From Protonemura montana (Eukaryota > Arthropoda > Insecta > Plecoptera > Nemouridae): a stretch of DNA of 64,000 nt. This document shows positions 3,001-57,600 of the stretch, piece after piece (position 1 is the stretch's first letter; every line of letters starts with the position of its first letter). The position numbers were made by a program, and so were the translations under genes. The stretch spans positions 31,468,242 through 31,532,241 of the forward strand of contig OX387602.1 in assembly GCA_947568835.1 (NCBI GenBank). The letters run 5' to 3'. The notes under the pieces were generated by a model, which worked only from the letters and a program-made list of their open reading frames with translations, ran no database searches and had not been told where the DNA came from.

Positions 3001-4109
3001 GGTAGCAGGTGCCCGAGAACAATTGTTTACCAGCGATTGATTGGATCAAGATTACCCCTGTATTTGCAGAAAGTTGTGTCGAGGAGGACGGGATTCTCGT
3101 CGCGGTGGAACATGCGCCAGACGTAGAGCTGCGTTAAAGTTTTCGCAGATTGATCGCCGAGAGCCATGAGGACTTGCGTACCTTCCTTCCGTTTCAACTG
3201 AGCGTTCTCAAAGTTTGCGACAGACAAACCTGTCTGCAAACTGTCAACAAAGCATCGAAGGTAATCTTTTTATAAGTAGAAGAAATGTTTTATATTTCGG
3301 CGCTTCATTTTATAACAGACGCCGCTCAGGCTCAAAAATCCATAATTAAGCAGAACGAGTTTTAATAACGAAGCAAAGCATTATTAAATAACACATTGTT
3401 TTTAAAGTATTGATGAATTCTTCGAATAAAAGGAATACACGTGCGACGTGTGACGACCGGTGTAAAAATGATAGAATGTGGTGAATTTGTATTTTAATTT
3501 TGACGTGTTTTAGTTTTTAGCATTATGACAATTTTCAACGCTTGCGAAAATTACTGCTGTTTTTGTTTTTACCAAAGAGCATAGACCGGCATACGGTACA
3601 AAGAAATGTATAAATATAAATAAATAAAGAAAAAACAATAGTTTTACATTGACACAAGTACCTAACAAAAGAATGTCAAGTTATTACATCAAAACTTAAA
3701 GGTACCTGAGAAAATCCCCCAAATTTTCCAGAAAGCTCTTCCGCGAGGCATAGTCAAGCCACTCTAGGTCCATTAAGATATCGCACAGAATAAACTGCTC
3801 AACTTGTTGTTGTTGAAGAGTGATCTTGCGCAACGTGTAGCCAACACACTGTGACAGTTGGCGAATTACTTCTTGGCTTGGTCGCACGGACTTCTGCTGG
3901 AAGTGCCAGAGTATGCAGGCAATCTCGGAGGGAAGTGACAGCGTGGGGTAAGCATTAGGAAAGATGAGGGCATCGCAGTGGGCGAGGAGGGTCCAGTGAC
4001 GACGAACATCTTCTAGCTCCCACACCTCCGGCAGCTCTTCTGCCGAGCTGGAGTCGCTGCCTTCGTCCCAGCTCGCGAGCGACGATCCACTTTCAACGTC
4101 GCACAACAT
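1..4109 (-). CDS. F-box/LRR-type protein (FBXO33/FBXO39-like), 3' end beyond window
   Basis: Four exons chain with matching phases on the minus strand: 4109-3706, 3240-3056, 2541-2236, and 270 to the window edge (the end of this last exon is uncertain; a possible donor lies near residue text GHYPS). The start ATG at 4109 has an in-frame TGA a few codons upstream. Exon 1 ends in an acidic/serine N-terminus plus about 110 residues containing LPSEIACILWHF, which could be a divergent F-box start but is not a clear one. Exons 2-4 carry leucine-rich text (LTQLYVWRMFHRDENP, ITFWRSLVRFQHLTTL, YCPSLKVHMVL) like the LRR part of FBXO33/FBXO39 substrate receptors of SCF ubiquitin ligases. The intron between exons 2 and 3 is almost wholly a SINE. 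Family assignment is from pattern memory and tentative; the exon chain itself is well supported by phase. Confidence 0.6.
271..2235. other. Intron of the F-box gene; repeat fragments
   Basis: No exon seen. Two partial copies of the hammerhead-bearing repeat family (about 703-830 and 1288-1545, family minus orientation) and a short tandem of CCACTGCAATCAACCACCG near 1165-1205. The rest is AT-rich with no recognisable content. Confidence 0.6.
2569..3012 (-). mobile_element. 5S rRNA-derived SINE, near full length
   Basis: Read on the minus strand, the head near 3000-2900 matches the 5S rRNA internal promoter: GATCACCGAAGCTAAGCAAC, then GTATTGGATGGGTGACCATC (A-box/IE and C-box region). A body of about 300 bp follows and ends in CGTCGTTAAACACCACAAAT with a (TAA)n tail at 2571-2588. 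This is the single-headed form; other copies in the window have several heads. It fills nearly all of a 514-bp intron. Confidence 0.85.
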
Positions 4110-9700: not shown

Positions 9701-12700
9701 TTCATGCATGCCTATGAAAGTTATTGAAGAAATTGAGCCCAAACGCTGTTAATTAAGTTCGTTTTACGTGAAATAGAAATGATTTTGCAAAAAGAGTGAC
9801 AGATGCATTCATTTGTTTGGTTTTTTGACCACTGCAGGGTGAACGAATTCTTAAACTTATCTTTGTGGCAGTGCATTCAGGATATTAAAACGTCAATGTC
9901 AATGTCAACGTCAATGTCAAATTCTTTTCAATATCTCTAAAACTGAAGGGAAATAAATGACAAAACTGATATATTGTTGGTGTCTTGGCTAGCAAGATTG
10001 GTAAGCCCAGATTCTAAAAGGTATTTCACAAGTTTCACTCTCTAAAAAATATTTCAAGAAATCATACACGGAAATCTTTTGACAGCCAACTTCGTTTGTT
10101 TTCGAAATTGTCATCGTGGTCACTTTGGAATTCACAGAGTTTCCACAATGCAGTGACCCCAAGTGAAATAAGCGGCAAATTTCAAATAAAATAAATGGGG
10201 GTACTTTTGGTTGTGGTCCCATTAGAGGCTTTACATTAAAACCAAAATGCACAATCCCTCAAAATCTTAAGGTGCCGTTAGGCATCGGGTTCTGCTAGTT
10301 TATGTATATATTTTTGTATGTGTATTTTGTTCCCAGAATAAAAAACTATTATTATTATTATTATTACTTGACCATTGTATTGACAATGTCTTCATGCCTA
10401 AGCTGAATAACCGTAATAAATATTAAAAAATATCTGTCTGCCGTTGCAGTGACGTCGACATCGAGGCCCAGTTCAGCCTGAACCAGTCGCGAGCGGAGGA
10501 GATAACGATGCGGGAAGACTACGGCACGATGACGCTTGCCCCCAACGAGGAGGGATTCGGTGACATGGGCTTCGACTCTGAGCCATCGGACGTCATGCGA
10601 AACATGCCAAGTTTCGAGCCGTTGTTGGAGCACTCGGCGATGTTGTTCAGCGACGGGCCAGGAGGAGAGCGGCTGGCCGCGGACAAGGACCCGCAGCCGA
10701 GCACGTCGGGCGGACAATCTTCACGGATGCCGCTCGATCTTGACACGCCTATGAAGGACGACGGGTTCGGCGGCCACCTCGGCCAAGACATCATGGACTG
10801 TAAGTGGCGATGCGTTTTATACTTATTGGCATTTTCCGTCGGTTCCCTGCTAGAAGCTCGTGGTGTTTGCAAGAGACTGAGGTTTTTTCCCTTGTGTCAT
10901 GTGTATGATGGTCACCCATCCAATACCTGACTCAACGCAGTGTTGCTTAACTTTCATCCCTCCAACCTCTCTCCCGAACAGAACTGGTCATGTGTATGAT
11001 GGTCACCCATCCAATACCTGACCCAGCACAGTGTTGCTTAACTTTCATCCCTCCAACCTCTCTCCCAAACAGAACTGGTCATGTGTATGATGGTCACCCA
11101 TCCAATACCTGACCCAGTGCAGGTTGCTAAACTTCGGTGGTCTGACGAGAACCGGTCTTTCCAACACGCTGAACCGTTTGGTTTTTTCCCATGTTTCAGC
11201 CGGAGGTCTGTTCGAGGGCGGCCTCTTCGACGACGCCCCCATGTTGCCCGGCAACGACTCCCACAAGGTGCTGGACCGCGTGCCTGACCAGGACGACAGC
11301 GACGATGACATGGACCACTTCGGGGGACCGCCATCTGTTGGCGGACACAGGTAACACTTCGGTCTAAGAAGATGAACAACAACAGTTTGCTATAGGGCAT
11401 CAAAACGATGTTAAAGTGTGATATCAGCGGGAAACTAATCTGAACTCGTGCACTTCTGACGTTTATTTTGTGAGCCAACAAAGTTGTTAGCTGTGAAACC
11501 TAAAAATAAGGCAAGCCTGTTGAACATATCCATGCCATGCATCCACCTGTTGCTATAGCAACCATCTTCAATTGAACTGTCAGCTTTCTATTGACCATCA
11601 TACCAATTTATAATATGACGACTTCATTTGATTTGTTGTCGTGTCCCGATCCATATCAAAGAATCCTCGAAACGTAGCTCCTTCAATTCGAACCTTCGAA
11701 ACTTCCTTCTCCAGAACATTTTCTACAGCCTCGAAGAATACCTCACCACAACATCTCACTAACCATCTCTCCTTTGACCCCAAACTCCAAACATTCCCCC
11801 ATAATCATGACCTGCATGACCTGCATGACCTGCTAATTACTATTGTCACTTCATTGTTAACAAGTTATCGTAAAAAGCACATACAAATACAATGTACTTG
11901 TCCGACGCTTCAAATAAATACAAATAGCATTAATAAACTTCTTCTTCTTGTCTCGTTGGTGGTTTCATGCTATGTCTCAAGCGTTCTAACTCGTCTGTCT
12001 GTCTGCCGCAGCATGGACGGAGACTCTCCCGTGCCGAGCCCGCTGCCGATGTCGCAGCCGCTGCTGCTCGCGCCAGCTACGGACGCCGCCGCCGCGTACG
12101 CAGACCCGGCAGACGACGCGGTGGCCGAGACGCAGGCCGGCCAATCCGAGCACCATGAGCAGACAACGTTGCTCCAGAACGAGGACGAGAGCTTCGCGCT
12201 TGCGCCGGTCGACGCTTCGGCGCTCAGAGGTACGCTTGCGCTTGCGCTGCTTGGCGGCAGCCGAGGATTCGGCGTGGGAAGTTATTCCCACACGAGTTAT
12301 TCGAGTTTGACAGGTTGTGACGTGGTATAGCGCCACTAGAATCAGAGTGACTGTGAGTATTCACAGCCTCTTGGTTCTACTCTTTGGAGATCCGTCATTC
12401 TCATCAAATACACTAAAATCATCTCAAAAAGCCAGTGTCCAAGTAGCTCAATTGGTTTGAGCAACACCCGCGACAGGTGGAGATCGGGGTTCTAGAGCCC
12501 ATTTGGGCATCAACTTTTGAGTAGGTAGAAGTGTTCCCAATAATAAAATGCCAGGTGCTAACGATTCCACTTTGATCGCCAGGCTTCACGAAGACGAAAC
12601 GCAAGCGCAAACTGATTGTGGACGAAGTGAAGAACATCTCGGGCGAGGAGATGAAAGCTCAGCTGTCAGACACGAGCGACATCGTCACCACCCTGGACCT

Positions 12701-15700
12701 GGCTCCGCCCACCAAGCGACTCATGCACTGGAAGGAGACCGGCGGAGTTGAAAAGTTGTTTGCGTTACCGGGACGACCAATCCCTGCGAGGGCACTCTCC
12801 AAGGTGTGTACAACATGAGTCAAATAAACGTAGGGAAGTCAGCGGACAATTGACTTAGCAATCAGCACAAGCATAGCACACAAGGATCTTAAAACTTGGT
12901 TATCATATGGGACTGCACACAATTGACATAGCAATAAGTACAAGCATAGCGCACAAGGATCTTAAAACTTGGTTATCATATGGGACTGCACACAATTAAC
13001 ATAGCAATCAGCACAAGCGTAGCACACAAGGATCTTAAAACTTGGTTATCATATGGGACTGCACACAATTGACATAGCAATAAGCACAAGCATAGCACAC
13101 AAGGATCTTAAAACTTGGTTATCATATGGGACTGCACACAATTGACATAGCAATAAGCACAAGCATAGCAAACAAGGATCTTAAAACTTGGTTATCATAT
13201 GGGACTGCACACAATTGACATAGCAATAAGCACAAGCATAGCACACAAGGATCTTAAAACTTGGTTATCATATGGGACTGCACACAATTGACATAGCAAT
13301 AAGCACAAGCATAGCACACAAGGATCTTAAAACTTGGTTATCATATGGGACTGCACACAATTGACATAGCAATAAGCACAAGCATAGCACACAAGGATCT
13401 TAAAACTTGGTTATCATATGGGACTGCACACAATTGACATAGCAATAAGCACAAGCATAGCACACAAGGATCTTAAAACTTGGTTATCATATGGGACTGC
13501 ACACAATTGACATAGCAATAAGCACAAGCATAGCACACAAGGATCTTAAAACTTGGTTATCATATGGGACTGCACACAATTGACATAGCAATAAGCACAA
13601 GGATTATAAAACTTGGTTATCATATGGGACTGCACACAATTGACATAGCAATAAGCACAAGGATTATAAAACTTGGTTATCATATGGGACTGCACTGAGT
13701 GTAACTGTAACCTGGACTTTATGTTGCAGAACTACCAGCGACACCTGACCAGTAAAGCAGCCGAGAACCTGGACTTTGGCACCGTGGGAGACGAGGCCGA
13801 GGAAGATCTCGCTCTCGAGCTGGTTCCCGGCGAGGCGGAGGAGGCGGGGCCAGCCGGGACAAAGCGTGCTCCGCGTAAACGCAAGCTGCAAGAAGCCGAG
13901 GACTTTCAGGTGAGTGCCTGACCTTGACCTTGTCTGCATCAAGCTGTTGCACGAGGAAAGCGGTGGGGAAAATGTTTGCTCCCGTGTTTGTGATTCGTTT
14001 TTGAAGATCATTTTCCACCGTTGTCATTTCCCGTATAAGCACAAAGAACCTGTCAGCTGAATGTCGTTTTAAGACGTCTCCAGAGAGATTTCAAGACAAA
14101 CACCCAGCCACTTGGATCACCCTCTCCTCGCTCACTAAAGAGCTTGTAAAGTATAATTTGAATTACAACGGCTTGCTGGGTGCAAGGTGATTAATTTAAA
14201 GAACAGCTCTCAAAAATTGGTGCCCAATCGGGGACTTTTTCCCGTCAAATTGGAGTTATTCGAGTTTGACAGATTGTGACGTGATATAGCGTCACTAGAA
14301 TCAGAGTGACTGTGAGTATTCACAGCCTCTTGGATCTACTCCTTGGAGAACTGTCATTCTCATCAAATAAACTAAAATCATCTCTAAAAGCCAGTGTCCA
14401 AGTAGCTCAATTGGTTAGAGCAACACCCGCGACAGGTGGAGATCGGGGTTCGAGTCCCCGTTCGGCCACACATTTTTTAGAGGTTATTAGTGTTCCCAAA
14501 AATAAAAAATCTAAGGAGCCTGATCATCGTCTTGGTTGCTGTCACCAGGCCAACAAGCGTCTGGCCGAACAACTCGCAGAGATGCCCGGCTCGGTGCCTG
14601 GGGGCGTGTCCGGGAGTGTGGGGGCGGAGCACGTGGACGCGTTCGCTGCATACCTCGGAGGGTCGGGGGCGGCAGACGTGTCGGACCTGCGGCTAGACGA
14701 CGACGTGCCTCAACCGACCCCGGCCGCCACCGCTGCCGCCTCCCATTCTCCGCTGCCGCTCGACCTTGCCGAGATGCCGCAGATCACTCCCGATCAGGTG
14801 CGTACTTCAACCTCGTCACTTACCTTACCTCGTTGTGTCGAACAAATGTCGATACCTGCTGCGTTTAAAACTAGTGCTAAGTTTAGATTAAGTAGACATG
14901 AGTCTAAAAACAATAAAAATGTAACTGTCTCTACAACGTACTAGATTCCTAGGAATTATCTGCTAAAATCAGTCTGCAATCTCCTCCCTGCGTTAGGTCA
15001 GGTAACGCGGGTAGATTTCTGCGATGGCAGCAGGTTTTTCTACGCCCAGCAACTGGTGTGTTCACGAATCGGTTCCAGTAAACACTTCGCATTGCCACGG
15101 TAACTCGGCAGGTACCAGCATTTAAATTGACGTGATATCATGACGCTAAGTTGTGCGCGGTGCTTTGCAGGTTCACTCCCTCCTGAAGCAGCACGACCAG
15201 GCGATGCTCCACGATCAGTCGCAAGCTCCGCCCACACCGGCGTCCATGCACCCAATCGAAGGGGAACAGATGCCGCCCATGGAAAACATGGGATACGATC
15301 TCGTAAGTGTAGCTCTAGTGGTCTCGGTCTCCTCCAGACATCGATACATCCTGCACTCAGTGTCAATTGTGTGCAGTCCCATATGATAACCAAGTTTTAA
15401 GATCCTTTTACTGGATCTCAAACACACATAACCTGTGTGATTGGTGATCACCGACTCCACCAGACCCGTGACACAAGGCTTGTTGTCAAAACAAATGGGC
15501 CAAGCCATTTGTAATTACAAATTGTGATAAACAAACTGTTTGGGTTAAAGCACGATGAGCCCAGAAAATGCATCAGTGATGCACATAAAGGTGAAACTGT
15601 GATGTTTTAATGTCCCCTTGAGTCTGTAGAGAGAATAAAAAACCCTGGCCCGTTGGTCCAGCCTCGATGTTTCCCAGCCGACTGGGCCTCCTTTGTGGCA

Positions 15701-26500: not shown

Positions 26501-27675
26501 ACTGAAAACTAAGTTCTTAAATACAAAACTAAAAGTGCTGGTGACTTTCTGCTAAATACCTACCGTACACTAGCGGATTCTAGCAATGGCTGCCGTAGAG
26601 CGGTTTGCAAGCTTGGGTGCATGCCAACCTGATAAAAGTTACCCAAAATTTATTAATTTGAACTTTGGTTTACTGAAATTATGAAATTTAACCAGTTTTA
26701 ACCAAAGAAACACATTATTTTGTTGCTTTTAAATCAGATGGTTAACAGTAACATGATGGTATCATGTTTTCTAGGTTGGTATGAGCAGCCCAGAAAGTAG
26801 CGAACTCAAATTAATTCTAGTGTACTTGGTCCATGGATCTCCTGCTGATCTTTGTTGCGTCGTGTTTTGCAGAGCTCTCGCGAGCAGCTGGCGATTGCAG
26901 AGTTTGCACGATCGTTGTTGGTGATCCCCAAGACGCTGGGAGTTAACGCAGCTCAGGACTCTACCGATCTTGTGGCTAAACTGCGTGCGTACCACAACTC
27001 TAGCCAGACCAAGCTCGAACATGCAGAGCTCAAGTGGTAAGAATGTCAATCCCTGGATTCAATGCAAATAAATTGCAAACAGACTTGGTAATTTATTATT
27101 ATCAACAATATAACCGTCTCAAAAATTGATGCCCAAACGGGGACTCGAACCCCGATCTCCACCTGTCGCGGGTGTTGCTCTAACCAATTGAGCTACTTGA
27201 ACCCCAATCTCCACCTGTCGCGGGTGTTGCTCTGAACCATTGAGCTACTTGGACACTGGCTTTTTGAGACGATTTTAGTGTATTTGATGAGAATAACGGA
27301 TCTCCTAAGAGTAGAACTGAATGGAGTAGACTGGACTTGTTGTGGTGAAGTAAGAAAAAAAGACAGAGTCTCCAACAAGTAATGATGGGCACGGTAACGG
27401 AGGTTGGGGCTGGACCGTGGTATCAGCCGGTGCTTGATGTTGACTTTCGATCGTGTGTTCACAGGTACGGACTTGACTTGTACGCGGGCGTCGTCCGTGA
27501 CAACAAGGCCGCGGGCGTGCTGGAGCCGGCTATGTCCAAGATCAAGTCGCTGAAGTTTGCCACGGAGGCTGCGATCACGATCCTGCGCATCGACGACATG
27601 ATCCGTCTCGATCCCGAGCGCAAGCAGGAGAACTCTTACCGCAACGCGTATGAGTCGGGACAGCTCGACGGATGA
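20566..27675 (+). CDS. TCP1: CCT1 / TCP-1 alpha, chaperonin-containing TCP1 subunit 1, complete
   Basis: Exons: 20566-20638, 20918-21003, 21353-21579, 21668-21778, 22853-23117, 24274-24414, 25154-25356, 25997-26189, 26873-27036, 27465-27675. The total is 1674 nt, i.e. 557 residues, against 556 in human; all phases agree. The group II chaperonin ATP-site motifs are visible: TNDGATI (about 58-64), GDGTT (90-94) and AGGG (413-416). The apical-domain text [15 protein letters not shown] and the CCT1-type [20 protein letters not shown] are in exons 5 and 7. The product is one of eight paralogues in the cytosolic TRiC ring that folds actin, tubulin and WD40 proteins. The donor ending exon 7 (GTACGT, inside a longer open frame) and the start of exon 8 were chosen because they restore [14 protein letters not shown]. 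Confidence 0.98.
22100..22500 (+). repeat. tRNA-SINE 3' tail and extension (CCT1 intron 4)
   Basis: TTTTTGAGATGGTTTTAGTG ... GCATTGCAAGCGTTTGCAAT is the common 3' part of the tRNA-derived SINE. Here it continues through ATTAGACCGATTTTTTTCAA for about 200 bp more. The head is missing, so this may be the 3' end of a partner LINE rather than of the SINE. Confidence 0.5.
23265..23580. repeat. tRNA-SINE 3' half followed by hammerhead-family repeat (CCT1 intron 5)
   Basis: GGTGGAGATCAGGGTTCGAG to about 23390 is the B-box half and tail of the tRNA SINE on the plus strand. From TTTTTAGACTCGTGTCTACT to 23580 is a copy of the hammerhead-bearing repeat in minus orientation. Confidence 0.7.
27080..27310 (-). 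mobile_element. tRNA-derived SINE with two heads (CCT1 intron 9)
   Basis: On the minus strand two tRNA-like heads follow each other at a spacing of about 52 bp (TTGAGCTACTTGAACC and TTGAGCTACTTGGACACTGG on the plus strand), then the SINE body toward 27080. One head has an intact B-box GGTTCGAGTCC. Confidence 0.8.
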
Positions 27676-41046: not shown

Positions 41047-44000
41047 TTAGTTCACTCTGACGTCTTCGTAGTCTGTGTCCGTGGACAAGGACTGTCGTTC
41101 GTACTCCAGGCTGGAATCGCGTCGCGCTGAAGGGGAAACGTCGCTGCTCGAGTCTCGGCTGTTGTTGAGTCGTTCGTACGGTGGCTCGCCCGGTAGACTG
41201 GCGTAGTCCACACTCTCGTAGTTGGGGCCTGGGCTAGCGACACTTTCATAGTTCGGGTCTAAGCTAGCGACAGTCTCGTAGTTGGGGCCAAGGCTAGCCA
41301 CACTCTCGTAGTTGGGGTCTAAGCTAGCCACGCTGTCGTAGTTGGGGCCTGGGCTAGCCACGCTGTCGTAGTTGGGGCCTGGGCTAGCGACACTTTCATA
41401 GTTGGGGCCAAGGCTAGCCACGCTCTCGTAGTTCGGGTCAATCTCGCCACTGAACGTCGAGCCGGCTTCGTCACCTGGCCGATGAACCCTGGCGTAGCCC
41501 AGTTCTTCGCCGACAGAACTCTTCGGCCGCCGGCTCTTGTCGATCTTCGCATAGCTCGGCTCGACCACGCTCTTGGAACGCACTTTCTCGTAGCCTCGCT
41601 CGGCCAAACTTTTACCGTCGACTTTCTCGTACGCCGGTCCGGCCAGACTTTTCGCCCTTTTTTTATAGCTCGTCTCGGTCGAGCTTTTGCCTTTGAACTT
41701 TTCGTAGCCCGAGTCCAGGCTCCCTATGCTGGCGTAGCCCGGCTCGTCGCTCGCGGACGCTATCTCCGTGACTTGAGGTCGGAGCTCTTCGTAGTTTGGG
41801 TCGGCCGAAGGTCTCTCCACCACCTCGTAGTCTAGGTTCACGGCCGACAACCTCGGTTCCGTCAACCTCTGGACCTCTTCGTAGTTGGGGTCCATCATAG
41901 AACGTCGTATATCCTCGTAATCGGCGTCCGAGGAGCGTTGCACAACTTCATATCCGGGATCCACGTAGCTCGTCGCCGGAACCAAGGAAGATAAACTGGG
42001 TTCCTCTTCCCGATAGGGCTGCCGCACTTCGTTGCCACGCCCCTCGGGGTCAACGCTGCTCGGCGATTGGCCGTCAGTAGGCGGTGGTTCTGCGGTGGCG
42101 ACAGATTCGTCCGGCCCCGGCTCGGATTCGGTGGAATGCGACCGTGAATCGGTGGACAGACGCCGTGTGGTGGGATCCTCGGACCCTTTCGCTCGCTGCG
42201 TGCGCTTCATCACCTGGTGGTAAAGAGAGGAGTTACACTTGAGACACAATCGCTGCATTGATTTCTCAAACCACTTTCTTTACTGGATCATAAAGTTGTC
42301 TTTATTGACAAAATTTTATCAGAATTTACTTCAGAATTTTACTACAAAGACTCTTGCAGGCCAATTTTTAAACGATTTTAAAATTATGACAATCCCGTGC
42401 CTTTATATATATAATACTATTTTATATAAAATAGACGATTTACCAAACGATGATAATGATTTAAACTGTAAGACAAGGACAAAGGGAAATTTTAAACTAA
42501 AGAAAATAAAACTAGAAATAACAAAGAAAGACCCAGATCTGCAGGTGCAAAACTGCAATGCAATGCTCTAGCTAATTATATCAAGGAAAAAAAAGGATAG
42601 GCGCTCAGAAATATCATAAAAGAGTTTTTAATTGAGAGATGTTTTTATACTGTCAAAGAATATTGTACCATTTAATTTAAAAAAAATGACTGTCAAATAA
42701 CGTGTATATGTTCTAAATGACAATAAACAAATTATTATTATTATTATTGTGTATAAAGTCCACCTCTATGCCAGGATGTTGGGCAATGTTTAGAGGTACC
42801 TTGGTGCTAAGACTTACCTTAGCATACATCTCTTCGAGGGTGCGTTCTGTGGCTGCTGCTGCCGCTGCCGATGACTTCTTGTCGACGGTGGCGTAGAGTT
42901 CGGAAGCGGGGCCGGCGGGGGGCGGCGGGGGCAGAGGGGAGTTGGCCTGTCTCTTCTCCGGCTTGGGAGACCCAAGGTTAGCCACCGAGCTGGCTGCGCT
43001 AGAAGAAGATGCTGCAAGGAACGACAGACAAACTGTCAATTCTAGTTTACATTGCAAGCACCTGTCAAACATTTCTCCTAAAAATGTCCTTCAGCAAGGG
43101 GACAAAACGGGCATCAGTTTAATTGTAAAGAGAAACAGCACATAATTGTTCTTAGACTCATGTCTACTTGATGTAAACTTAGCACTTGTTTTAACAAAAA
43201 CTATTTCAACTGGGTTTTGAATGCTAAGTAAAGAACAACTGAATTTCCCAACGTTTCGTAACTTGTACCTGTTACTTTATCAAGGGTAAGAGCAGTGTAT
43301 CCAACACGGTAAGGTGAGCCTAACGTATCAGGATGAAATATCTGTGTCTATCGCACGTGGGTTTCCATGACGACCTGACAGTTACCTTGCCGCGAATGCG
43401 CCTGCGCCACGTGTTTCAGGCTGTCGACACTAGGTGGCGGTGGCGCGCTCGGGTCGTCTCGTGGCGGCTGCATTTGTTCGGGCGGCGGCAGGATTTGCGC
43501 GTACGTCTCACTGCCGCTGGTGTACACTCCTTGCGCGTCCTCGATGTCTGCGTAGACCTCCTCTGTTGGGAACAAAGCAGAGACTAGTGATGGAGCATTC
43601 CGAGGAAAATTCCCGGGAATATTCCCGAATAAGTAATAGATTCCCAAAACTACGGTTTATTCCTAGGTTTTTCCTAGGTCTAAGGTGTATTTTTATTTAT
43701 TGACTTCTAACTTAGGTACAAGTATACCGGTGGTTAGTGCTAGTAGGCAATCTGGCCTATGCTGGTTCCTAGGTCTAAGGTGTATTTTTATTTATTTATT
43801 TCTAACTTAGGTACAAGTATACTGGTGGTTAGTGCTAGTAGGCAATCTGGCCTATGCTAGTTCCTAGGTCTGAGGTGTATTTTTATTTATTTATTTATTG
43901 ATTTCTAACTTAGGTACAAGTATACCGGTGGTTAGTGCTAGTAGGCAATCTGACCTATGCTAGTTCCTAGGTCTAAGGTGTATTTTTATTTATTTATTTA

Positions 44001-47000
44001 TTGATTTCTAACTTAGGTACAAGTATACCGGTGGTTAGTGCTAGTAGGCAATCTAGCCTATGCTGGTTCCTAGGTCTGAGGTGTATTTTTATTTATTTAT
44101 TTATTGATTTCTAACTTAGGTACAAGTATACCGGTGGTTAGTGCTAGTAGGCAATCTGGCCTATGCTAGTTCCTAGGTCTAAGGTGTATTTTTATTTATT
44201 TATTTATTGATTTCTAACTTAGGTACAAGTATACCGGTGGTTAGTGCTGGTAGGCAATCTGGCCGATGCTGGTTCCTAGGTCTGAGGTGTATTTTTATTT
44301 ATTTATTTATTGATTTCTAACTTAGGTACAAGTATACCGGTGGTTAGTGCTAGTAGGCAATCTGGCCTATGCTAGTTCCTAGGTCTAAGGTGTATTTTTA
44401 TTTATTTATTTATTGATTTCTAACTTAGGTACAAGTATACCGGTGGTTAGTGCTAGTAGGCAATCTGGCCTATGCTAGTTCCTAGGTCTGAGGTGTATTT
44501 TTATTTATTTATTTATTGACTTCTAACTTAGGTACAAGTATACCGGTGGTTAGTGCTAGTAGGCAATCTGGCCTATGCTAGTTCCTAGGTCTAGGGTGTA
44601 TTTTTGGCACCACGTATGATTACATACGACTGCAATGTTTTTCTTGTTAGTAACAAATCGTTGCCCCCCGGAACGACCGATGCACTCTGGCTGTCAACTT
44701 TTAAACACACTTCCCATGAGATTCTCAACAGAAACTGTCATAATTTCAAAACCAAACTAAACGCCTTTTGACGTGACTACGTTTTAAAGCGCATTATATA
44801 GGAAGGCATGTACGGATTTGCTCTACAAAATAGCAAATGTGTAACAAGCCCTACAGCCTACAGGACACAAAGGACAGAATGCAATTTATTATCATTCAAT
44901 AGTTCAGATAATTCTCTAGAGTTACTTTTTTTTTGATTTTCGATTAACTAAATATTGGAGGCGCTAGAGGGGTTGGCGTTTTTAATTCTCTCCATCAGAC
45001 CAAATGAAGATCAGATGAAGATCTTTTATGATTTTCTGGTTTCTTGCATGTGAAGTTTGGTCGGTACTGTAGTTGACCTACGTGCCTACGCGGTAGTTGA
45101 ACGTAGTCACGCTTAAATATCGGCCGTATCAATAAGATACAGCTACACCCGGTTTTTTCACTCGAATATTCACCCTCATCGAATTTTATCTTAAATTTAA
45201 TCAACTCTGACATCGATCAAGCTGAACTTTACTTGCACGATGATGGTTTTTATATCAATAGGTCAAATTGACAATAAACTTATTATTATTATTATTAAAC
45301 AACATGTGTGAGGTCTTCAAGTGGAGAAAGCAAGGAATGGCACGGCCAGAATCAATTGGTTAGAGCAACACCTGCGACAGCTGGAGACCGGGGTTCGAGT
45401 CCCCGTTTGGGCAACAATTGTTGAGATGTTACTACAACTAAAACTCACCGGAATCATCGGAGACCGTCGTGTAGACATCTTCTCCGATCGGTCTGCGTTG
45501 TCCACGTTGCTGGGCCTTGATGTTGGCCAACGGCTCACGTACGCTGATGCTGGTATAACCTTCTGAAGGACAAAACACAGTCGTCAGTTTCTTTATCCTT
45601 CTGAAGGACGTATCAAAATTGTCAGTGAAATCTGATTTAAATTGCAAACGCTTGCAATGCGCGGGGTATTTTATTATTATCAACACTAGAACCGTCTCAA
45701 AAATTGATGCCCAAACGGAGACTCGAATGCAACTTACTGCTGGAGTCTTGCGAGTCTCCGCTAAAGTGCGCCTGTCCCTCCGCCGCCGCGGCCACCGGAG
45801 GCGGGACAATGGGCGGAGTCATGTACGGCAGCTCCTGATTGGCCGAGACGTGTCCGGAGATGGCGGTGGCGGCAGCGATGGTTTCCGTCTCGGTCGTCGT
45901 CGTCTCCGCGTGGAACGAGTTTGTCTTGCGCTGTCGCGGTGGCGCCACTGGACTGGACACGCCCACCGCCGCCGGCGCTGACGAGCGCGGTCGACGCGAC
46001 GTAGCTCCTCCCACTTGCGAATATGGATGCTCGCCTGCGGGAACGATGCACGATTATAACACAAATCTCAGTCCATTCTTCATAATTCACAAAACTACAT
46101 AAAATTATAACAATTACCAAGTTCAAGCTTCCTAAATGCATCTAAACAAAATAATCAGGGTCAATAACTAAAAAACTAATGTATTATGTATTTTCTGAAA
46201 TAAATATCATATGAAATTTTGTTATTGGAAAATTGTCAGGACTGCTCAAACCTCTGAAGAAGTAACTAGTATATGTTGCGAAACGTCGGGAAATTTAGTA
46301 GCCCTTTACTTAGCATTCAAAACCTATTTCAAATAGTTTTTCTTAAAACTAACGTATTTTGTATTTGTGGAAATGTCGCCGGGAACAAATGGGCGTTATT
46401 TTGATCAGCTTACTTTTACGCAGCTTGTCGTACGGATGTTCTCCCTTGAGCTGCGCGTACGGAGCGAAGGCGTCGTCGTTCTGGCTCAACGAGCTGTAAG
46501 CACTTCCCTTCCCGTCGTCCGAAGCACCTGTCGCTCGACCACCTGCGACCAGCTCGCCTGCGGGCAAAACACGGCTCACTCAAAGTCTTGTCAGTTTCTT
46601 TACAAATGCACGAGCCTTCCTGGAATCCAAAGTAGGGATCCAAGTAGCTCAATTGGTTAGAGCAACACCCGTGACAGGTGGAGATCGGGGTCCAAGTAGC
46701 TCAATTGGTTAGAGCAACACCCGTGACAGGTGGAGATCGGGGTCCAAGTAGCTCAATTGGTTAGAGCAACACCCGCGACAGGTGGCGATCGGGGTCCAAG
46801 TAGCTCAATTGGTTAGAGCAACACCCGCGACAGGTGGCGATCCCGGTGCCACATGGCTTGTTATCAAAACTGTAAAGAACAATTTTTTTTTTTTGCAAAT
46901 GCATTGCAAGCATTTGCAATTTAAATAAGATTTCATCTCGGTATAAAGCAATCTTAATGGAATGAGACTTGTAAAGAACTAGTAAAGCCCGGGTGTTGGT

Positions 47001-49390
47001 AGTTTAGTGCTAGGGTTGGCATACCTGCAGCAGCTAGGAGATGAGCTGCCTCCTTGTTCTCGGTGACAGTGGCGTAGAGGGCCGAGCAAGCATCGCTATG
47101 AGGTTCGCTTGCCTCCCAGACCGTGTCTGGGCCGTTGGAAGTTCTCATGCGCTCCTGATCCACTGGCAGGTCAGGCAGACTTCGATTGGCTGTCGAGGTG
47201 GCAACCCTGCAAACACACCAACAACGTTCGTTCCGATCACGCTGCCGTTCCGTTCTGGTAACTTCATATGTACCAACTTGAGACACTTAAGTCAATTATT
47301 ATTATTTGTGGTGTTTAACGACGCACTGTTTTGACATCTGGCCATGCGGCACTGGTCTAATGGCGTCGGTGAATGAGTGGACGATGATGAGGATGATGAT
47401 GAACCTAACCTAGTCTAGAAGGGAGGAGGGGAAACCCGGTGCCGGCACGTAGCCTACTCCTGTCGAAGACCAAGGGGACCACTGGCTTAACGTCCCTTCC
47501 GAAGGACGGTACAACGTGAACAACAGGATTCCTCCACAAATCCATGCTGTCGAGAGGTTGATAAGCAAGGCGAGTGAAGTTGCTGTACTAACTTTCATCC
47601 CTCTAACCTCTCTCCCGAACAGAACTGGTCATGTGTATGATGGTCACCCATCCAATACCTGACCTAGCGCAGTGTTGCTTAACTTTCATCCCTCCAACCT
47701 CTCACCCGAACAGAACTGGTCATGTGTATGATGGTCACCCATCCAATACCTGACCTAGCGCAGTGTTGCTTAACTTTCATCCCTCCAACCTCTCACCCGA
47801 ACAGAACTGGTCATGTGTATGATGGTCACCCATCCAATACCTGACCTAGCGCAGTGTTGCTTAACTTTCATCCCTCCAACCTCTCTCCCGAACAGAACTG
47901 GTCATGTGTATGATGGTCACCCATCCAATACCTGACCCAGCACAGTGTTGCTTAACTTTCATCCCTCCAACCTCTCACCCGAACAGAACTGACTTAAGTC
48001 AATAAATACTGCGTTAGCACCAATATAACGCAACCTTCATATTTGGACCAGGATTAAAAGGAAAAATGCATCTATAAAAACCCAGAACGTAATGCAAATG
48101 TTGCTTTTAGTAGACTATTTCCAGTAAAATATATCGCATCGTATTTTGGCTAATGCATTGATCATCAAAAAACCTACTTGGATTAAATCCCAACATTTCT
48201 ATTCCAGGTTTCCTTTTTTGAAATAATCCTCTATATTGTAATTGCAATAATTTTAATAAAAATGGTTTACCTTCTGTGAGCCTCGGCTGAATCCGCAGAC
48301 GTACGGTTATTGTCGACAATCGCTGGACTTCCATTTTCGCAGTGATAGTTCGTATCGAGGTTTTCTTCTGGGTTTGTGATTTTCACCAAACCAGCGAGTC
48401 CCATCAGTTCATTCCTAGGACAGACGTAGAAAGTAATTTCAAGCTTATCACAAGTTAATGGGATAATATTATTTGCCATACAGGTGGAATGAAAGTAGCG
48501 TAGGATTTGGAATGGGTGCGCATGGGTAAAACGCAAAACATTCGTGCTGGCATTGCAACCATTTGCAAATTTTATATTCCAAGCCAGACAGTTCAAATCA
48601 TTTATGTCAATATCATTATTATCATCATTATTATATATTATTATCATTCAAATCAAATCAAGCCAGACAAATCATTTATGCCCTAATGAAAGCAGATCTG
48701 TTGTGAGTTGATTTATATCAGAAAGTTTATGTTGCTCTCCATGGCACGAACTAGAGACTGTTTCCACGTTTATTTATGGACGTTCTGATGAGATAAGTTT
48801 AGGCATTCAACCGATGAGTTTCATAGCCAACAAGGTATTGTTTTATTGATTGATTCTGTTTAACGACGAACTGTTTTGACATCTGGTCATGCGGCACTGG
48901 TCTAATGGCGTTCGGTGAATGAGTAGATGATGATGAACCTAACATAGAATAGAAGGGAGGAGGGGAAACCCAGTGCCTACTGAGCACCAAGGTGACCACT
49001 GGCTTAACGTCCCTTCCGAAGGACGGTACAAGGCGAACAACAGGATTCCTCCACAAATCCATGCTGTTGAGAGGTTGATAAGCAAGGCGAATGAAGTCGC
49101 TTTACTAACTTTCATCCCTCCAATCTCTCTCCCAAACAGATCTGGTTATGTGTATGATGGTTACCCATCAAATACTCAGTGCAGTGTCGCTAAACTTTGG
49201 TAATCTCATGAGAACCGGTGTTTGCAACACACCAAACCGTTCGGTCCTCATTTTTATTTCTCAGGTTTTGAAGGTTAGGTACTTACTTTGGCGCTTTCTT
49301 TCTGCAGCCACAGATGCAGGCAAACAATACGACAAGTAGAGCAACTACTACCGCGGCTGAGACAAGCCAGTGCTCAACATTGCTCAACAT
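41047..49390 (-). CDS. PAG1/Cbp-like transmembrane adaptor with about 40 tyrosine sites
   Basis: Nine exons: 49390-49287, 48414-48271, 47206-47025, 46557-46414, 46034-45738, 45562-45449, 43562-43386, 43011-42818, 42213-41047. The sum is 2523 nt, i.e. 840 residues, all phases matching. The start ATG at 49390 has an in-frame TGA upstream. Exon 1 gives a short outside segment (MLSNVEHW), one membrane span (about 9-27) and a juxtamembrane CICGCRKK, like the palmitoylated Cys motifs of LAT, PAG and NTAL. The rest is predicted cytoplasmic, disordered and Pro/Ser-rich, with repeated Yxx[ILVF]: LYATV, YAQL, YDKL, YSQV, YTTV, YADI, YAQI, YAKV, then 26 tyrosines in the last exon including a run of PNYESV/PNYDSV. 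LYATV and DYESI-type sites and a LPDLP motif recall vertebrate PAG1, which recruits Csk to Src-family kinases in lipid rafts. Human PAG1 is about half this length; its C-terminal PDZ ligand (TRL) is absent here (ends DVRVN). Homology is inferred from architecture and motifs. Confidence 0.8.
41213..41443 (-). repeat. In-frame tandem repeat coding PNYESVAS(L/P)G
   Basis: Eight near-identical 30-bp units in the last exon of the PAG-like gene encode consecutive PN-Y-(E/D)-(S/T)-V peptides separated by four residues. DNA identity between units is high (CTCGTAGTTGGGGCC recurs), pointing to recent slippage or unequal exchange while the frame and the tyrosine are kept. Confidence 0.95.
43148..43300 (-). 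repeat. Hammerhead-family repeat, partial copy
   Basis: From TTAGACTCATGTCTACTTGA to CAAGGGTAAGAGCAG; same family as 63405-63690, inverted, inside the intron between exons 8 and 7 of the PAG-like gene. Confidence 0.85.
43665..44610 (+). repeat. About 103-bp minisatellite in PAG-like intron 6
   Basis: About nine to ten units each with CCTAGGTCT(A/G)AGGTGTATTT, a run of TTTA, then AACTTAGGTACAAGTATACC and GGTGGTTAGTGCTAGTAGGC. The spacing of CCTAGGTCT is 103 bp in the later units and shorter in the first ones, where TTTA repeats are fewer. Confidence 0.95.
44615..45300 (+). repeat. Probable LINE tail with (TTA)n end (PAG-like intron 6)
   Basis: Frame text LWLSTFKHTSHEILNRNCHN followed by FKTKLNAF near 44690-44770 looks like the LINE C-terminal FK..LK..L motif. 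Sequence to ACAATAAACTTATTATTATT at 45275-45300 would be its 3' end. Weak but consistent. Confidence 0.4.
45340..45730. repeat. tRNA-SINE head (+) and SINE tail (-) around exon 6
   Basis: 45350-45425 is a plus-strand tRNA-like head ending GGTTCGAGTCCCCGTTTGGG just before the donor side of exon 6. 45640-45735 is a minus-oriented 3' part (GCAAACGCTTGCAATGCGCG ... GATGCCCAAACGG) touching the donor side of exon 5. Confidence 0.75.
46080..46350 (+). repeat. Hammerhead-family repeat with intact core-like motif
   Basis: An inverted composite of the family: 46098-46190 is in minus and 46215-46350 in plus orientation. The plus part has CTGAAGA (46254-46260), a 5-bp pairable arm GTAAC / GTTGC, then GAAACGTC (46280-46287) followed by GGG, which can pair with CCT before CTGAAGA. 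Confidence 0.7.
46638..46850 (+). mobile_element. tRNA-SINE with four tandem heads (PAG-like intron 3)
   Basis: Four direct 52-bp units start at 46639, 46691, 46743 and 46795, each with TAGCTCAATTGGTTAGAGCA (A-box) and truncated before the B-box. A SINE tail fragment (GCATTGCAAGCATTTGCAAT) follows at 46900-46940. Confidence 0.9.
47297..47995 (-). mobile_element. 5S-derived SINE with four tandem heads (PAG-like intron 2)
   Basis: Minus orientation. Head units have their C-box region at 47652, 47743, 47834 and 47925 (exact 91-bp period). The body runs to a 3' end CGTCGTTAAACACCACAAAT with short (TAA)n at 47297-47310. Confidence 0.9.
48842..49255 (-). mobile_element. 5S-derived SINE, single head, diverged (PAG-like intron 1)
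   Basis: Same structure as 2569-3012 with more substitutions (head GGTTACCCATCAAATACTCA on plus strand). The 3' end (GTTCGTCGTTAAACAGAATC on minus) differs from the other copies and lacks the TAA tail. Confidence 0.85.
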
Positions 49391-51688: not shown

Positions 51689-54600
51689 TCACTGAAGCTG
51701 CATCGTAACCCAGACAACGTTCCTCGGATGGACCAGGCCGCCGATCTCACAGTTCACCGTCCGCGACTCTCCGTTGACGACGAAGAGGGCCTCGTTGGCG
51801 GGGGTCACCATGTAGTGGCCGAACACGCCCGACGCCGCAATCGGTCTGTTGGGCGTGCCCCACTGCGCTATCGACGGCTGCATTGCCTTGCCAACGCCAG
51901 TGATCATCTCCACCTTGCCTGCAAGACGGGACACAGTCAGCAAGCTCTGCCCAGTCACACAATCTTACCAAACGTTAGGCGTGTGGGAAACACTGGTCCT
52001 TGTGAGATCACCGAAGTTAAGCAACACAGCGCTGAGTCAGGTATTGGATGGGTGACCATCATACACATGACCAGTTCTGTTCGGGAGAGAGGTTGGAGGG
52101 ATGAAAGTTAAGCAACACTGTGCTGGGTCAGGTATTGGATGAGTGACCATCATACACATGACCAGTTCTGTTCGGGAGAGAGATTGGAGGGATGAAAGTT
52201 AAGCAACACTGCGCTGAGTCAGGTATTGAATGGGTGACCATCATACACATGACCAGTTCTGTTCGGGAGAGAGGTTGGAGGGATGAAAGTTAAGCAACAC
52301 TGCGCTGGGTCAGGTATTGAATGGGTGACCATCATACACATGACCAGTTCTGTTCGGGAGAGAGGTTGAAGGGATGAAAGCTAAGCAACACTGCGCTGAG
52401 TCAGGTATTGGATGGGTGATCATCATACACAAGACCAGTTCTGTTCGGGAGAAAGGTTGGAGGGATGAAAGTTAGTACAGCAACTTCACTTGCCTTGCTT
52501 ATCAACCTCTCGACAGCATGGATTTGTGGAGGAATCCTGTTGTTCGCATTTTACTGTCCTTGGGAAGGGACGTGAAACCGGTGGTCCCCTTGGTCTTCGA
52601 CAGGAGTAGGCTACGTGCCGGCACCGGGTTTCCCCTCCTCCCTTCTATGCTAGGTTAGGTTCCTCATCATCAACTCATTCACCGACGCCATTAGACCAGT
52701 GCCGCATGGCCAGAAGTCAAAACAACGCGTCGTTACACACCACAAATAAATAAATATTACAAATTATTTCAATCCTATCAGAAGTACTTGTCTTTTGATT
52801 TATCAGTGTTTTCAGGGTCAATTAGTTATTCCTACCTTTTTCTTGCCCATTCCACAAAGATATGCCGGTAAACGCTGCCAGGAAAGTGGGAGGAGACTCA
52901 CCTGACACAAGGTTGAGGAAGAGAATGTCCTCCTTGTCAGAGGCACTGGCGTAGAGGTCGTAGCCGTGGGTGGTCTGCGACGGATAGAACGCAATGTCGC
53001 TGATGTTTAGCGTAGTCTTCACGTCGAACGAGAACTTGAGTCCACCCGCTGAGGGGCAAAACAAACGCTTGTAGCCCAGGTATATCATGGTCTAGCATAG
53101 GAGGTTCAATGGTAGATTCAACGTTTGGTAGCCATGGAGATGCTGAGATCGCCTGACAGAGCTTCTCAATTCTGCTATCTTATGTTACCACGGGTATATC
53201 ATGGCCTAGCATAGGAGGTTCAATGTTTGATTCAACGTTTGGTGGCCATGGAGCCATGGAATTTAGTAACATTCCGCTAAACGAAACGATAGGAATCTGA
53301 AAGACAAATAGTATGAAGTTTAGATTGTGAAACTAAGTGTTGACTGACCTGCGACCTCCTGTACGACGAGCGTGACCCCGCGATGGTCTCGATCCAGTGT
53401 GACCACGCTGCGGCTGTTGGGAGAAACATGCGGTCGCCCGAACAGACCGGCCTTGTGGCTGACCACCGTGTCTGTCAGGTAGTCCAGCAGTAGCTGGCCC
53501 GTAGCACGCCCAGTTACAGGCTCCTCACACTCCAACACCACAAACCCATCTGTAAGAATAACATGGATAGAGCATAGGATCCAGCCAGCTGATCTCAAAT
53601 AACCTGGATAGAACATAGGATCCAGCCAGCTGATCTCAATGCTAATTTTAGAGTTTTTAAATGTGTTTTTTTGTTTATTCAAGTGATGAAAGCTACAAAA
53701 ACCAAGAAAGCTACTGATGAAAACACATGAAATAGCACGGTCTCTTTGAAAGAACTAAAAATCAGGGCCTTGACTTTTTTATGACAGCTGCTAACCAGGT
53801 TTAGAAGATCATTGCTTGAGAGTTGCAAGCGGTAAAACAGAGGAAGACATGGGAAAATATCGAAAGTGATAGTTTTTAGACTCATGTCTACATGATTTAT
53901 CCTTAGCACTAGTTTTAACAAAAACTATTTGAACTGGGTTTTGAATGCTAAGTGAATCAGCTGATTCGGCAACAAGCCCAGTGACAACTCACAGAGTGCG
54001 GAGAATCGAACGTGTCTTGGGACGCAGTTGTATGGCGTGAGGTCCACGCTACGTATGTACCGCATGTTGGCCAAGTCCAGCTTGTAGAGTCCACGCTGAT
54101 TCGTATGAGTCACATAACCGTACTTGAACGCGTGGCTCATGTCCTGCGCCGGCGGGATGAACAGTCCGCGCACGAGATCGAACTGCCCGTCTATCGGCTC
54201 GGGATGGACCGTGTGGTGTTTGCGCTTCTGTGCCCCGTCGCGGATGACCTGGATTGTCTTGACGCCGGCGTCGTGTTCGCTGCGCCAGTTCAACACCCAG
54301 ACCTGGTCCAGGTGCGGCACGTAGTGGAGCTCGACCGGGTACTTGTCCGTCACAACGACCTGCGAGATTTTATTTATTTATTTAAAGCGGCGGACAAGTA
54401 CATAGTATTTGTTTGTGCTTTTTACGATAACTTGTTAACAATAAAGTGACAATAGTAATTACTAGGTCATGCAGGCCAAGTGGTCATGAAATGGGGGAAC
54501 CAAAATCAAAAGATGCATTCAAGCAGTCAACCTTACAAAGTGCATGCCTGTCAAACATGGGCAACACTTAAAATAATTACCAACAAATTACTATCTATCT

Positions 54601-57600
54601 AAATAAAACAATCAGAAAATGTAATCTACAATCTAAGGTTAGATGCATTTAGGAAGCTTGAACTAGGTAATTGTTATAATTTTATGTGGTTCTTTTGTTA
54701 TTGGAAAATTGTCAGGACTGCTCTTACCCTTGATAAAGTAACAGGTACAAGTTACGAAACGTTGGGAAATTTAGTTGTTCTTTACTTCGCATTCAAAACC
54801 CAGTTGAAATAGTTTTTTTTATTACTTTATTGCATTTTGTATTGGACATGTTCATATTCAGGAGGATCAATCGAACAATCAAATAAAGGTATCCAAGATG
54901 TACTCACGTCAACGACGACCATCTGAATCTTGCTGATGACCAGTATCCGATCCTTGTGGGGCTGAGCCACGTACACGTAACGATTGGCCACGTTGATCGC
55001 TTGGCCCCAGCTGCAGTTCACTCCTTTGTCTCCGCAAACGTACTCCTGCGCAGAGAGACACGAAGTTAACAAACCTGTAGCCATCGTGGGCAACGTTACG
55101 ATCAGCATACTTCGCAAGCCAAACATAAGGCAACTTATAACTGCATGCCTGGGATGATGATGAGGATCTTTTAAAAAATGTGAAATACTTATGTAAATTA
55201 GTATTTACATTCGCTTCACCCGATTTTTACCCGAATATTTACCCTACATTTACTTTACATTTACTACATTTACCCGACCATTCGCTTCGAGCAAGGAACA
55301 AAACACGCGGAAGAAGTCGATGATGAAAAAAAGAGGATATACCAGCCCTGCATCGTAGACTTGTCCAGACGATATCATATCCCTGTCGGAAAATGGGAGG
55401 TAGTGGACGCCTGCTGGTCGGTGCTCGGGGAGGAATACCGATGTTTTTCATTAACTTCCTCAAGCATTTCATCATCTCCCTCTCAATATTAGATTCAATA
55501 GTTCCTGCCGTTCTTAAATCATCAATTTGCATCTTACACAACCATTTATACAACAACAATTCATAATTACAATGTGTTCATTTCATAACCATAATCATAA
55601 ATAATATTAGTAACAAATTGTTAGCAGTAAGTGATTAGTAAGCTTGACCTTAATGGTCAACCATATCTATGGAAAGCTGTTGATTTTTAAATAAATTGAT
55701 TTTCTCTCTCAAACTAACAACAAAGTTGTATGTAATTGTATTGTAAATTCTATAAACACTATTGTAATTCTATTAGCCTCAGGTGATTATTGTCATACCA
55801 AAGCTATTAATAAATAAATAAATACACTTTGAGACTGATAGACTTTGATACCTGCATGCCGGGGATGATGTCTGTTGACTGGATTTGATGGTAAAGTCGA
55901 CACGCTGTAGGTTCGTAGACGGAGATGCCCCAGTCGTGGAAAGAGAAGAAACGCCGCTCTTCATTGGGTGCCGCTGAAAGCAAACAGTGAGGTTAGGGTT
56001 GACATGAAGTCAAGCCATCAAGCAGCATCTTTTACAACTTTTTAGATGAAATCTGATTTAAATTGCAAACGCTTGAAATGCGCGGGGTATTTTATTATTA
56101 TCAACACTATGACCGTCTCAAAAATTGATGCCCAAACGGGGACTTGAACCCCGATCGCCACCTGTCGCGGGTGTTGCTCTAACCAATTGAGCTACTTGGA
56201 CACTGGCTTTTTGTGACGATTTGAGTGTATTTGATGAGAATGACAGATAAGCTGGTCAAAGCTTATGGTAACGTACACTAGAAAATCAAAAAAATTGTAC
56301 AGGCCGTTTAAAAATGACAAAAAAGCAGCAAGACAGATTGTTGGGTCGGGACTCACTTGGCGTTGGGTCTTCCTGCACGATGAGGGAGGAGATGTCCCGC
56401 GTGACTCCTCCCACGTTGGTTGCCTGGCACATGTACGCCCCCGTGTCTGCGTAGCCGATGTTGTGCAGCTGCAGTTCCGTCCCGTTGCCGATGATCTCGT
56501 ACTTCGCGTTGCCCGCCTCCAGCCGCAGCGGCTCGTCATTCTTCAGCCACTCAACCTGAAACATAACCGCATTAAACAACGACCGAGCTCTTTTATTATT
56601 AACAACACTAGAACCGTCTCAAAAATTAATGCACAAACGCGGACTCGAACCCCGATCTCCACCTGTCGCGGGTGTTGCTCTAACCAATTGAGCTACTTGG
56701 ACACTGGCTTTTTGAGACGATTTTAGTGTATTTGATGAGAATCGTAAAAAAAACCACATCGAGTCTCACAAATATTGTACAAATTAAACCATGAATGAAT
56801 GAATAGTTAAACCGTTGAGTGTGCAAGTTCTAGGTAGAGAAACAACGTCAATGTTACAGTCTCTGCGTGAAAGATGGCCGCCAAATGACTACCTTACCGA
56901 CAAAAATGCAGAGTACCGGAACATCACGTTAAGTGGAGCCACTGTCGTATGAAATTTAATTTCGATATTTCTCGTAGGTTACTCGCTTTTTAATATCGTC
57001 ACGTGTTTATCAATTGTTGAGGTAAACATTGATGGAGATTTTTTGAGCATGAAAAGTCTCAAAAGTGAGTTAACCTACGAGAAATATCGAAATAAAATTT
57101 CATACGACAGTGGCTCCACTTAACGTGACGTTCCGGTACTCTGCATTTTTGTCGGTAAGGTAGTCATTTGGCGGCCATCTTTCACGCAGAGACTGTAACA
57201 TTGACGTTCTGTCTCTACCTAGAACCTGCACTCAACGGTTTAACCAATCATTGCTACATCTTTATGGGGTCTTGCAAGGCCGACGCCCACCAACGCTGTC
57301 GGGAGCGGCTCACCTTGGGAAACGGCTCTCCGACCACGTGGCAAAGCATCGATCCCTCCTCTCCAGGCCTCCTGGACTGGATCCGTGGAGTCACCTTCAC
57401 TTCCGGAATCGCTGTAACAGGAGACATGACACATGACTAGGGTTGCCATAACAAACATTTCGGAAGGCAAGACAAATTTTAACGAACGAAAAGTAGTTAG
57501 GCCGGAGGCTCGGGGGAGAGACAGAGCTCCCCAAAAAATAAGGGTGTCGATGTGGGAACAGGATTTGAGGGCCATTTTCAGCAAATTTACGTGTTTTAGA

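Follow-up and report, generated by a model that had tools for sequence, protein, structure and literature searches.

The window, by which we mean the whole stretch of 64,000 nucleotides analysed here, carries on its minus strand a gene for a predicted membrane adaptor with a tail rich in tyrosine motifs. Nine exons between positions 41047 and 49390 were rebuilt from the sequence and joined to one frame of 2523 bases with an 840-residue product. All eight introns are of the GT-AG type and their phases (2,2,1,1,1,1,1,0) are mutually consistent. The sole stop of the joined frame is located at its end (41047-41049), 21 and 30 stops interrupt the two alternative frames of the spliced exons, and an in-frame stop is present three codons 5' of the ATG. 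The GC content amounts to 0.48-0.67 in the exons versus 0.30-0.47 in the introns. Because of the splice sites and phases, the contrast in GC content between exons and introns, the stops in the other frames and the excess of tyrosine motifs described below, we take the nine-exon adaptor gene to be real in the form of a predicted model, the start codon of which is likewise predicted. Its features are as follows.

49287..49390, minus strand: exon 1, with start codon, 8-residue ectodomain, membrane span and Cys motif; the only match in the genome
49310..49369, minus strand: predicted membrane span, residues about 8-27 (19-residue mean hydrophobicity 3.1)
49304..49318, minus strand: juxtamembrane CICGC, then RKK; putative palmitoylation site, judged from the sequence
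48271..48414, minus strand: exon 2, rebuilt from the sequence
47025..47206, minus strand: exon 3, with RSLPDLP (class I SH3-type) and the first LYATV site
47164..47184, minus strand: RSLPDLP, residues 91-97, from the motif scan; compare RELPRIP of PAG1
46414..46557, minus strand: exon 4, with YSSL, YAQL and YDKL sites
45738..46034, minus strand: exon 5, with a YSQV site and a class II SH3-type motif
45934..45951, minus strand: PVAPPR, residues 220-225, class II SH3-type motif, from the motif scan
45449..45562, minus strand: exon 6, with YTSI and YTTV sites
43386..43562, minus strand: exon 7, with the sites YADI and YAQI and, at residue 363, the second match to the class I SH3-type pattern
42818..43011, minus strand: exon 8, with the second LYATV and with MYAKV, which fits the Csk SH2 consensus
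41047..42213, minus strand: exon 9, the C-terminal expansion; it covers residues 453-840, contains 26 of the 40 tyrosines and includes the stop codon
41208..41437, minus strand: 30-bp in-frame tandem array, [DG]PNY[ED][ST]VAS[LP], 7.7 copies by Tandem Repeats Finder

Surroundings of the gene and search of the genome

Elsewhere in the window a RAD21-like part was found near 10.4 kb and a chaperonin of the TCP-1/cpn60 family at 22.8-26.2 kb. Upstream of the adaptor and on the same strand lies an Ig-domain gene, the later exons of which we take to be FSTL4/5-like; the frame of this gene is closed by a stop of its own at 51689-51691, and some 2.3 kb separate that stop from the adaptor start codon. 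Three elements similar to 5S rRNA score at or above the Rfam gathering threshold within the 64 kb (2883-3003 and 11064-11181 on the minus strand, 51968-52085 on the plus strand) and are probably 5S-derived interspersed elements. The four tRNA-Ser(CGA)-like genes in the same 64 kb (14396-14469 on the plus strand; 27130-27202, 56127-56202 and 56629-56703 on the minus strand) probably represent the heads of tRNA-derived SINEs. Within the introns of the adaptor gene, a 91-bp array of 4.4 copies (47589-47991, intron 2) looks like a repeated 5S 3' half, a 52-bp array of 4 copies (46635-46842, intron 3) looks like a repeated tRNA-Ser(CGA)-like head, and nine copies of a 103-bp unit with 95% matches (43692-44605) fill about half of intron 6.

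The genome searched is a 258-Mb assembly of 34 contigs, with the window on contig C1. A whole-genome search with the adaptor protein returned 58 rows: the window's nine exons account for nine of them and matches to the array region (residues 693-792) for the other 49, and no second copy of the adaptor was found genome-wide, with 54 of the 114 first-look candidates scored. A gene family was considered and rejected, as the matches outside the window are confined to the array region and the two best places are taken for minisatellites. One of them (L057) is a low-complexity repeat with a unit of about GPIWANL; the other (L053 1039-1953; G000:C11, about 2.865 Mb) has a 304-residue open frame of GPSYVSTVLL units and looks like a minisatellite that is open by chance.

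Possible binding partners were sought with the SH2 profile, which gave 35 exon matches genome-wide; 30 loci were compared with human CSK and SRC. A locus on C4 (L015) is Csk-like, with 60% identity to CSK in the SH2 part and 52% at the kinase start, compared with 40% and 33% to SRC. On C2, L028 and L038 form one place that is Src-like (SH3 69%, SH2 pieces 55-60%, kinase piece 65%), and L014 on C11 is Src-like as well (pieces 43-69%), both assignments being relative to CSK and SRC only.

In a contig of 15,885 bases (C34) the cox1 frame reads through TGA, and we regard this contig as the mitochondrial genome. Its gene order is nad2-cox1-cox2-atp6-cox3-nad3 and, when read as a circle, continues with nad4 and nad4L on the opposite strand and then with nad6-cytb (atp8, nad1 and nad5 were not identified in it). 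This order, which fits the arthropod ground pattern, agrees with the earlier assignment of the gene to an invertebrate. Copies of cox1 are also present on the 25.9-Mb contig C4 (G000:C4:5760925-5762262 and 5776811-5777755; L003 and L005), the first of which has the same score as the mitochondrial contig; they reflect either a recent nuclear copy of mitochondrial DNA or an assembly join.

Anatomy of the protein and its tyrosine motifs

The adaptor has an ectodomain of 8 residues ahead of a single span, followed by a long tail without an enzymatic domain. Only this one hydrophobic span is prominent, with a 19-residue Kyte-Doolittle mean of 3.1 versus 0.77 for the next best segment beyond residue 50. 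From the RKK past the span we infer that the latter serves as a plasma-membrane anchor and that almost nothing of the protein is exposed outside. No Pfam family was above cut-off in a Pfam profile search of the adaptor protein; side matches to Lysostaphin_N, WBP-1 and GAPT were all far below the cut-off and were dismissed, as were the matches in the PDB (best E 1.9).

The protein contains 40 tyrosines, 33 of which stand in a Yxx[ILVFM] context; when the tail was shuffled 5000 times with its composition kept, such contexts numbered 6.0 on average and never more than 15. Each of these 33 Yxxphi sites has E, D, S, T or A at position +1, so that they split into 19 Y[ED]xphi and 14 Y[STA]xphi sites. 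The remaining contexts that were counted are YxN (0), YxxM (0), YxxP (2) and YxxQ (1); the absence of YxN is by itself a weak point since the shuffles average 1.6. The 14 Y[STA]x[ILVM]-type sites are of the kind of the human Y317 (YSSV) Csk site and are candidate sites for Csk. Five sites (YSQV, YAQI, YAKV, YAKI and YARV) fit the strict Csk SH2 consensus, which is vertebrate-derived, but PAG1 has no fit to it and the strict consensus is therefore not diagnostic of PAG. Four of the 40 tyrosines are in strict ITIMs. Candidate SH3-type patterns were detected at residues 91 and 363 (class I) and at residue 220 (class II), and PxxP occurs 10 times in the tail versus a shuffle mean of 7.4, which is no enrichment. 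The adaptor ends with VRVN, and a C-terminal PDZ ligand ([IV]TRL) is absent. An earlier note on this DNA had described nine exons with consistent phases and 840 residues, one membrane span without any other domain and about 40 tyrosines, mostly in Yxx[ILVF] context, and all of this was recovered in the present analysis.

Exon 9 deserves separate consideration. Eight units of its 30-bp array contain a tyrosine; seven of these read [DG]PNY[ED][ST]VAS[LP] and the eighth diverges after V. Among the eight units the synonymous differences (pS) amount to 0.50 and the non-synonymous differences (pN) to 0.13 per site, values that come from pairs which are not independent and carry no formal test. In the core NYESVAS the corresponding values are 0.56 versus 0.08. 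Two more motif series of exon 9, of five and three units, are more diverged and gave 0.84 versus 0.27 and 0.74 versus 0.35. With synonymous differences exceeding non-synonymous ones, and with the two further series in agreement, the codons of the array indicate that the tyrosine motif was presumably preserved in all copies as the silent sites drifted.

Comparison with PAG1/Cbp and other adaptors

In mammalian cells, PAG/Cbp acts in rafts as the adaptor through which Csk reaches the Src kinases (PMC3968143, PMC10312003 and PMC4861716). The last of these articles defines a TRAP by a short ectodomain, a single span and an extended tail that bears tyrosine motifs, and ascribes to PAG ten tyrosines, two proline-rich SH3-binding parts and a Y317 that is needed for Csk (PMC4861716). 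According to the other two, phosphorylated Cbp binds c-Src via its SH2 domain and is anchored in rafts by palmitoylation (PMC3968143), and Csk is activated and brought to rafts by the binding of Cbp (PMC10312003). The predicted adaptor presents the plan of a TRAP, with an ectodomain of few residues, one span, a tyrosine-motif tail and no enzymatic domain.

With vertebrate PAG1/Cbp (PF15347) it has in common the tiny ectodomain, the single span, the juxtamembrane cysteines and the long tail without a known domain. In both proteins the Yxxphi sites are all of the Y[ED]xphi or Y[STA]xphi class (5 + 4 of the 10 tyrosines in PAG1, 33 of 40 in the adaptor), LYATV sites are present, and YxN and YxxM do not occur. 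In both, a single tyrosine precedes a class I SH3-type motif, which in turn stands before the main run of sites (RSLPDLP at residue 91 of the adaptor, RELPRIP at residue 131 of PAG1), and after the first run comes a motif of class II (PVAPPR at 220 and PPVPVK at 258, respectively). The adaptor differs from PAG1 in its length (840 versus 432 residues, so that PAG1 is indeed about half as long, as had been stated), in the second class I match at residue 363, in the 388-residue C-terminal tyrosine expansion of exon 9, and in lacking the C-terminal PDZ ligand, a match to PF15347 and a TPD52 gene on its own contig. The plan of PAG1 that had been attributed to the adaptor stands as regards ectodomain, span, cysteines, LYATV and motif classes, but the distal sites read YESV and not YESI, and the Cys motif is CICGC and not the CSSC of PAG1. 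LAT, NTAL/LAT2 and LAX1 are likewise built on the transmembrane adaptor plan; in contrast to the adaptor, which has none, they contain five Grb2-type YxN motifs each. Certain transmembrane proteins of choanoflagellates carry YxxP motifs in their cytosolic portion (PMC5043372), and these resemble the adaptor as membrane proteins with repeated cytosolic tyrosine motifs. However, the YxxP motif described there is for Crk, whereas only two of the 40 tyrosines of the adaptor are in a YxxP context.

A profile search against the PAG family and synteny near vertebrate PAG1, both proposed earlier as checks of homology, came out negative. PF15347 was listed neither for the whole adaptor nor for any of four pieces up to an E of 10, a range in which the HMMER filters drop most matches above 0.1 and for a profile that may not reach invertebrates; human PAG1, as a positive control, gave 752 bits. 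The sole PF15347 match genome-wide (C12, E 3.5) is at chance level, lies elsewhere than the adaptor locus and was discarded. TPD52, a neighbour of PAG1 in vertebrates, was found on C16 and the adaptor gene on C1, so that a PAG1-like synteny was not found, although lost synteny would not exclude orthology.

Pairwise alignment gave a more differentiated picture. Exons 1-8 reached a Smith-Waterman score of 113 against PAG1, compared with 60 ± 10 for in-place inter-motif shuffles and 54 ± 10 for shuffles in 15-residue windows, and this score was attained by 0 of 400 shuffles in either case. Without the span the score was 107 versus 60 ± 11 (0 of 400). The full adaptor also scored 113, with shuffles at 78 ± 10 and 2 of 400 reaching it. 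With LAX1, LAT or NTAL in place of PAG1, every comparison had 27 or more of 400 shuffles reaching the score, which is no clear excess. With free motif shuffles, the PAG1 score of exons 1-8 was attained by 0 of 500 and that of exons 2-8 by 2 of 500; when blocks of 20-60 residues were permuted, 0-1 of 500 permutations of the adaptor and 1-4 of 500 of the PAG tail equalled or exceeded the score. The respective scores were reached by motif shuffles in 19 of 500 cases for the whole tail, in 36 of 500 for exon 3 alone and in 373 of 500 for exon 9 alone, and when PAG1 was shuffled within windows of 5 or 8 residues the maxima were 123 and 134 and surpassed 113. In BLAST the match of residues 77-378 to PAG1 had an E of 1.9e-8 as long as composition was left unadjusted; with the adjustment, E was 0.15 for exons 1-8 and 0.13 for the whole protein, there within the array. 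The phmmer score of the adaptor versus PAG1 was -1.1 bits. At gap costs of 12/2 the PAG1 score was 65 with a maximum of 66 in 500 shuffles, and at 15/3 it was 47 versus 41 ± 5, which is no excess. The alignment itself is long, gappy and about 21% identical. Taken together, the collinear similarity of exons 1-8 to PAG1 is suggestive, a weak hint of common ancestry and not proof of it.

Proposed mechanism and competing explanations

On balance we lean slightly towards a mode of action like that of PAG/Cbp, in which the adaptor would be a transmembrane protein that is phosphorylated by Src-family kinases and docks Src and Csk; descent from PAG is a separate question. The span would anchor the adaptor in the plasma membrane with the tail inside, and the cysteines beside it may be palmitoylated. 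Src-family kinases would bind to the SH3-type motifs and phosphorylate tyrosines of the tail. The phosphorylated Y[ED]xphi sites could then serve as docking places for Src-type SH2 domains, and those of the Y[STA]xphi class (YAKV, YAKI and YARV, for example) for Csk, which once docked would phosphorylate and shut off the gathered Src kinases. The C-terminal array of exon 9 would multiply the docking sites and could in this way increase the capacity of the scaffold. Such a mechanism is suggested by the TRAP plan, the classes of tyrosine motifs, the order of the SH3-type motifs, the constraint on the array, the Csk- and Src-like exons in the genome and the similarity of exons 1-8. It is weakened by the ITIMs, the lack of PxxP enrichment, the two class I matches, the missing PDZ ligand and PF15347 match, and by the fact that Yxxphi is also an AP-2 endocytic signal. 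The SH2 preferences used are those from vertebrate work. Of the Src/Csk scaffold that had been proposed for this locus, the Csk- and Src-like exons and the PAG-type motif classes remain, but homology to PAG was not established.

Since disordered tails readily gain and multiply tyrosine motifs, the likeness to PAG may equally be convergent, and we give an even chance to an independently evolved transmembrane phosphotyrosine adaptor that is unrelated to PAG. Such a protein may dock Src, Csk, SHP2 or others and would be compatible with a PAG-like mechanism. The silent PF15347 profile, the composition-adjusted BLAST result for exons 1-8, the lost excess at gap costs of 15/3 and the motif shuffles that reach the PAG1 score with exon 9 alone or the whole tail are in favour of a separate origin, as are the cytosolic YxxP motifs of choanoflagellate transmembrane proteins (PMC5043372). 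However, the collinear excess of exons 1-8 is specific to PAG1, and the order of SH3-type motifs and the classes of tyrosine motifs are common to both proteins. The opposite view, according to which the adaptor is a true arthropod orthologue of PAG/Cbp, the membrane-anchored Csk-Src brake is older than the protostome-deuterostome split and the tail was enlarged by tandem duplication of a selected tyrosine unit, appears doubtful to us.

Other functions may be considered for the same tail. Tandem ITIM-like sites could recruit the tandem SH2 domains of the SHP2/Corkscrew phosphatase and make the adaptor an inhibitory scaffold, a role that the four strict ITIM matches and the YADI and YAQI cores would suit; since the strict ITIM fits just four of the 40 sites, we consider it improbable. 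The 33 Yxxphi motifs could also form an endocytic cargo tail that binds AP-2 and needs no tyrosine phosphorylation. AP-2, however, would not require E, D, S, T or A at +1, as is found in all 33 sites, and 33 copies seem to be beyond the needs of sorting, and this function is in our view very unlikely. It is hardly credible, finally, that the adaptor exons supply membrane span and tail to a receptor whose ectodomain is encoded by the upstream FSTL4/5-like gene. The two genes are close together on the same strand, but a fusion was rejected on account of the own stop of the FSTL-like frame, and the adaptor has its own ATG, preceded by the in-frame stop mentioned above.

The predicted anatomy of the adaptor is PAG-like and makes it a good candidate for a transmembrane Src/Csk adaptor of an arthropod. 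Among the matches listed in the open-access literature there was none that reports a PAG from an invertebrate, and 'Cbp' has no match in the main text of the Drosophila Csk paper PMC4764653. If the assignment is true, an arthropod transmembrane Csk/Src scaffold would provide a membrane anchor for Csk in animals with well-studied Csk and Src. The tandem array would represent a natural test of how a scaffold is tuned by the number of its phosphotyrosine sites and, should the adaptor be a true orthologue of PAG, the capacity of this scaffold would be evolving like a minisatellite.
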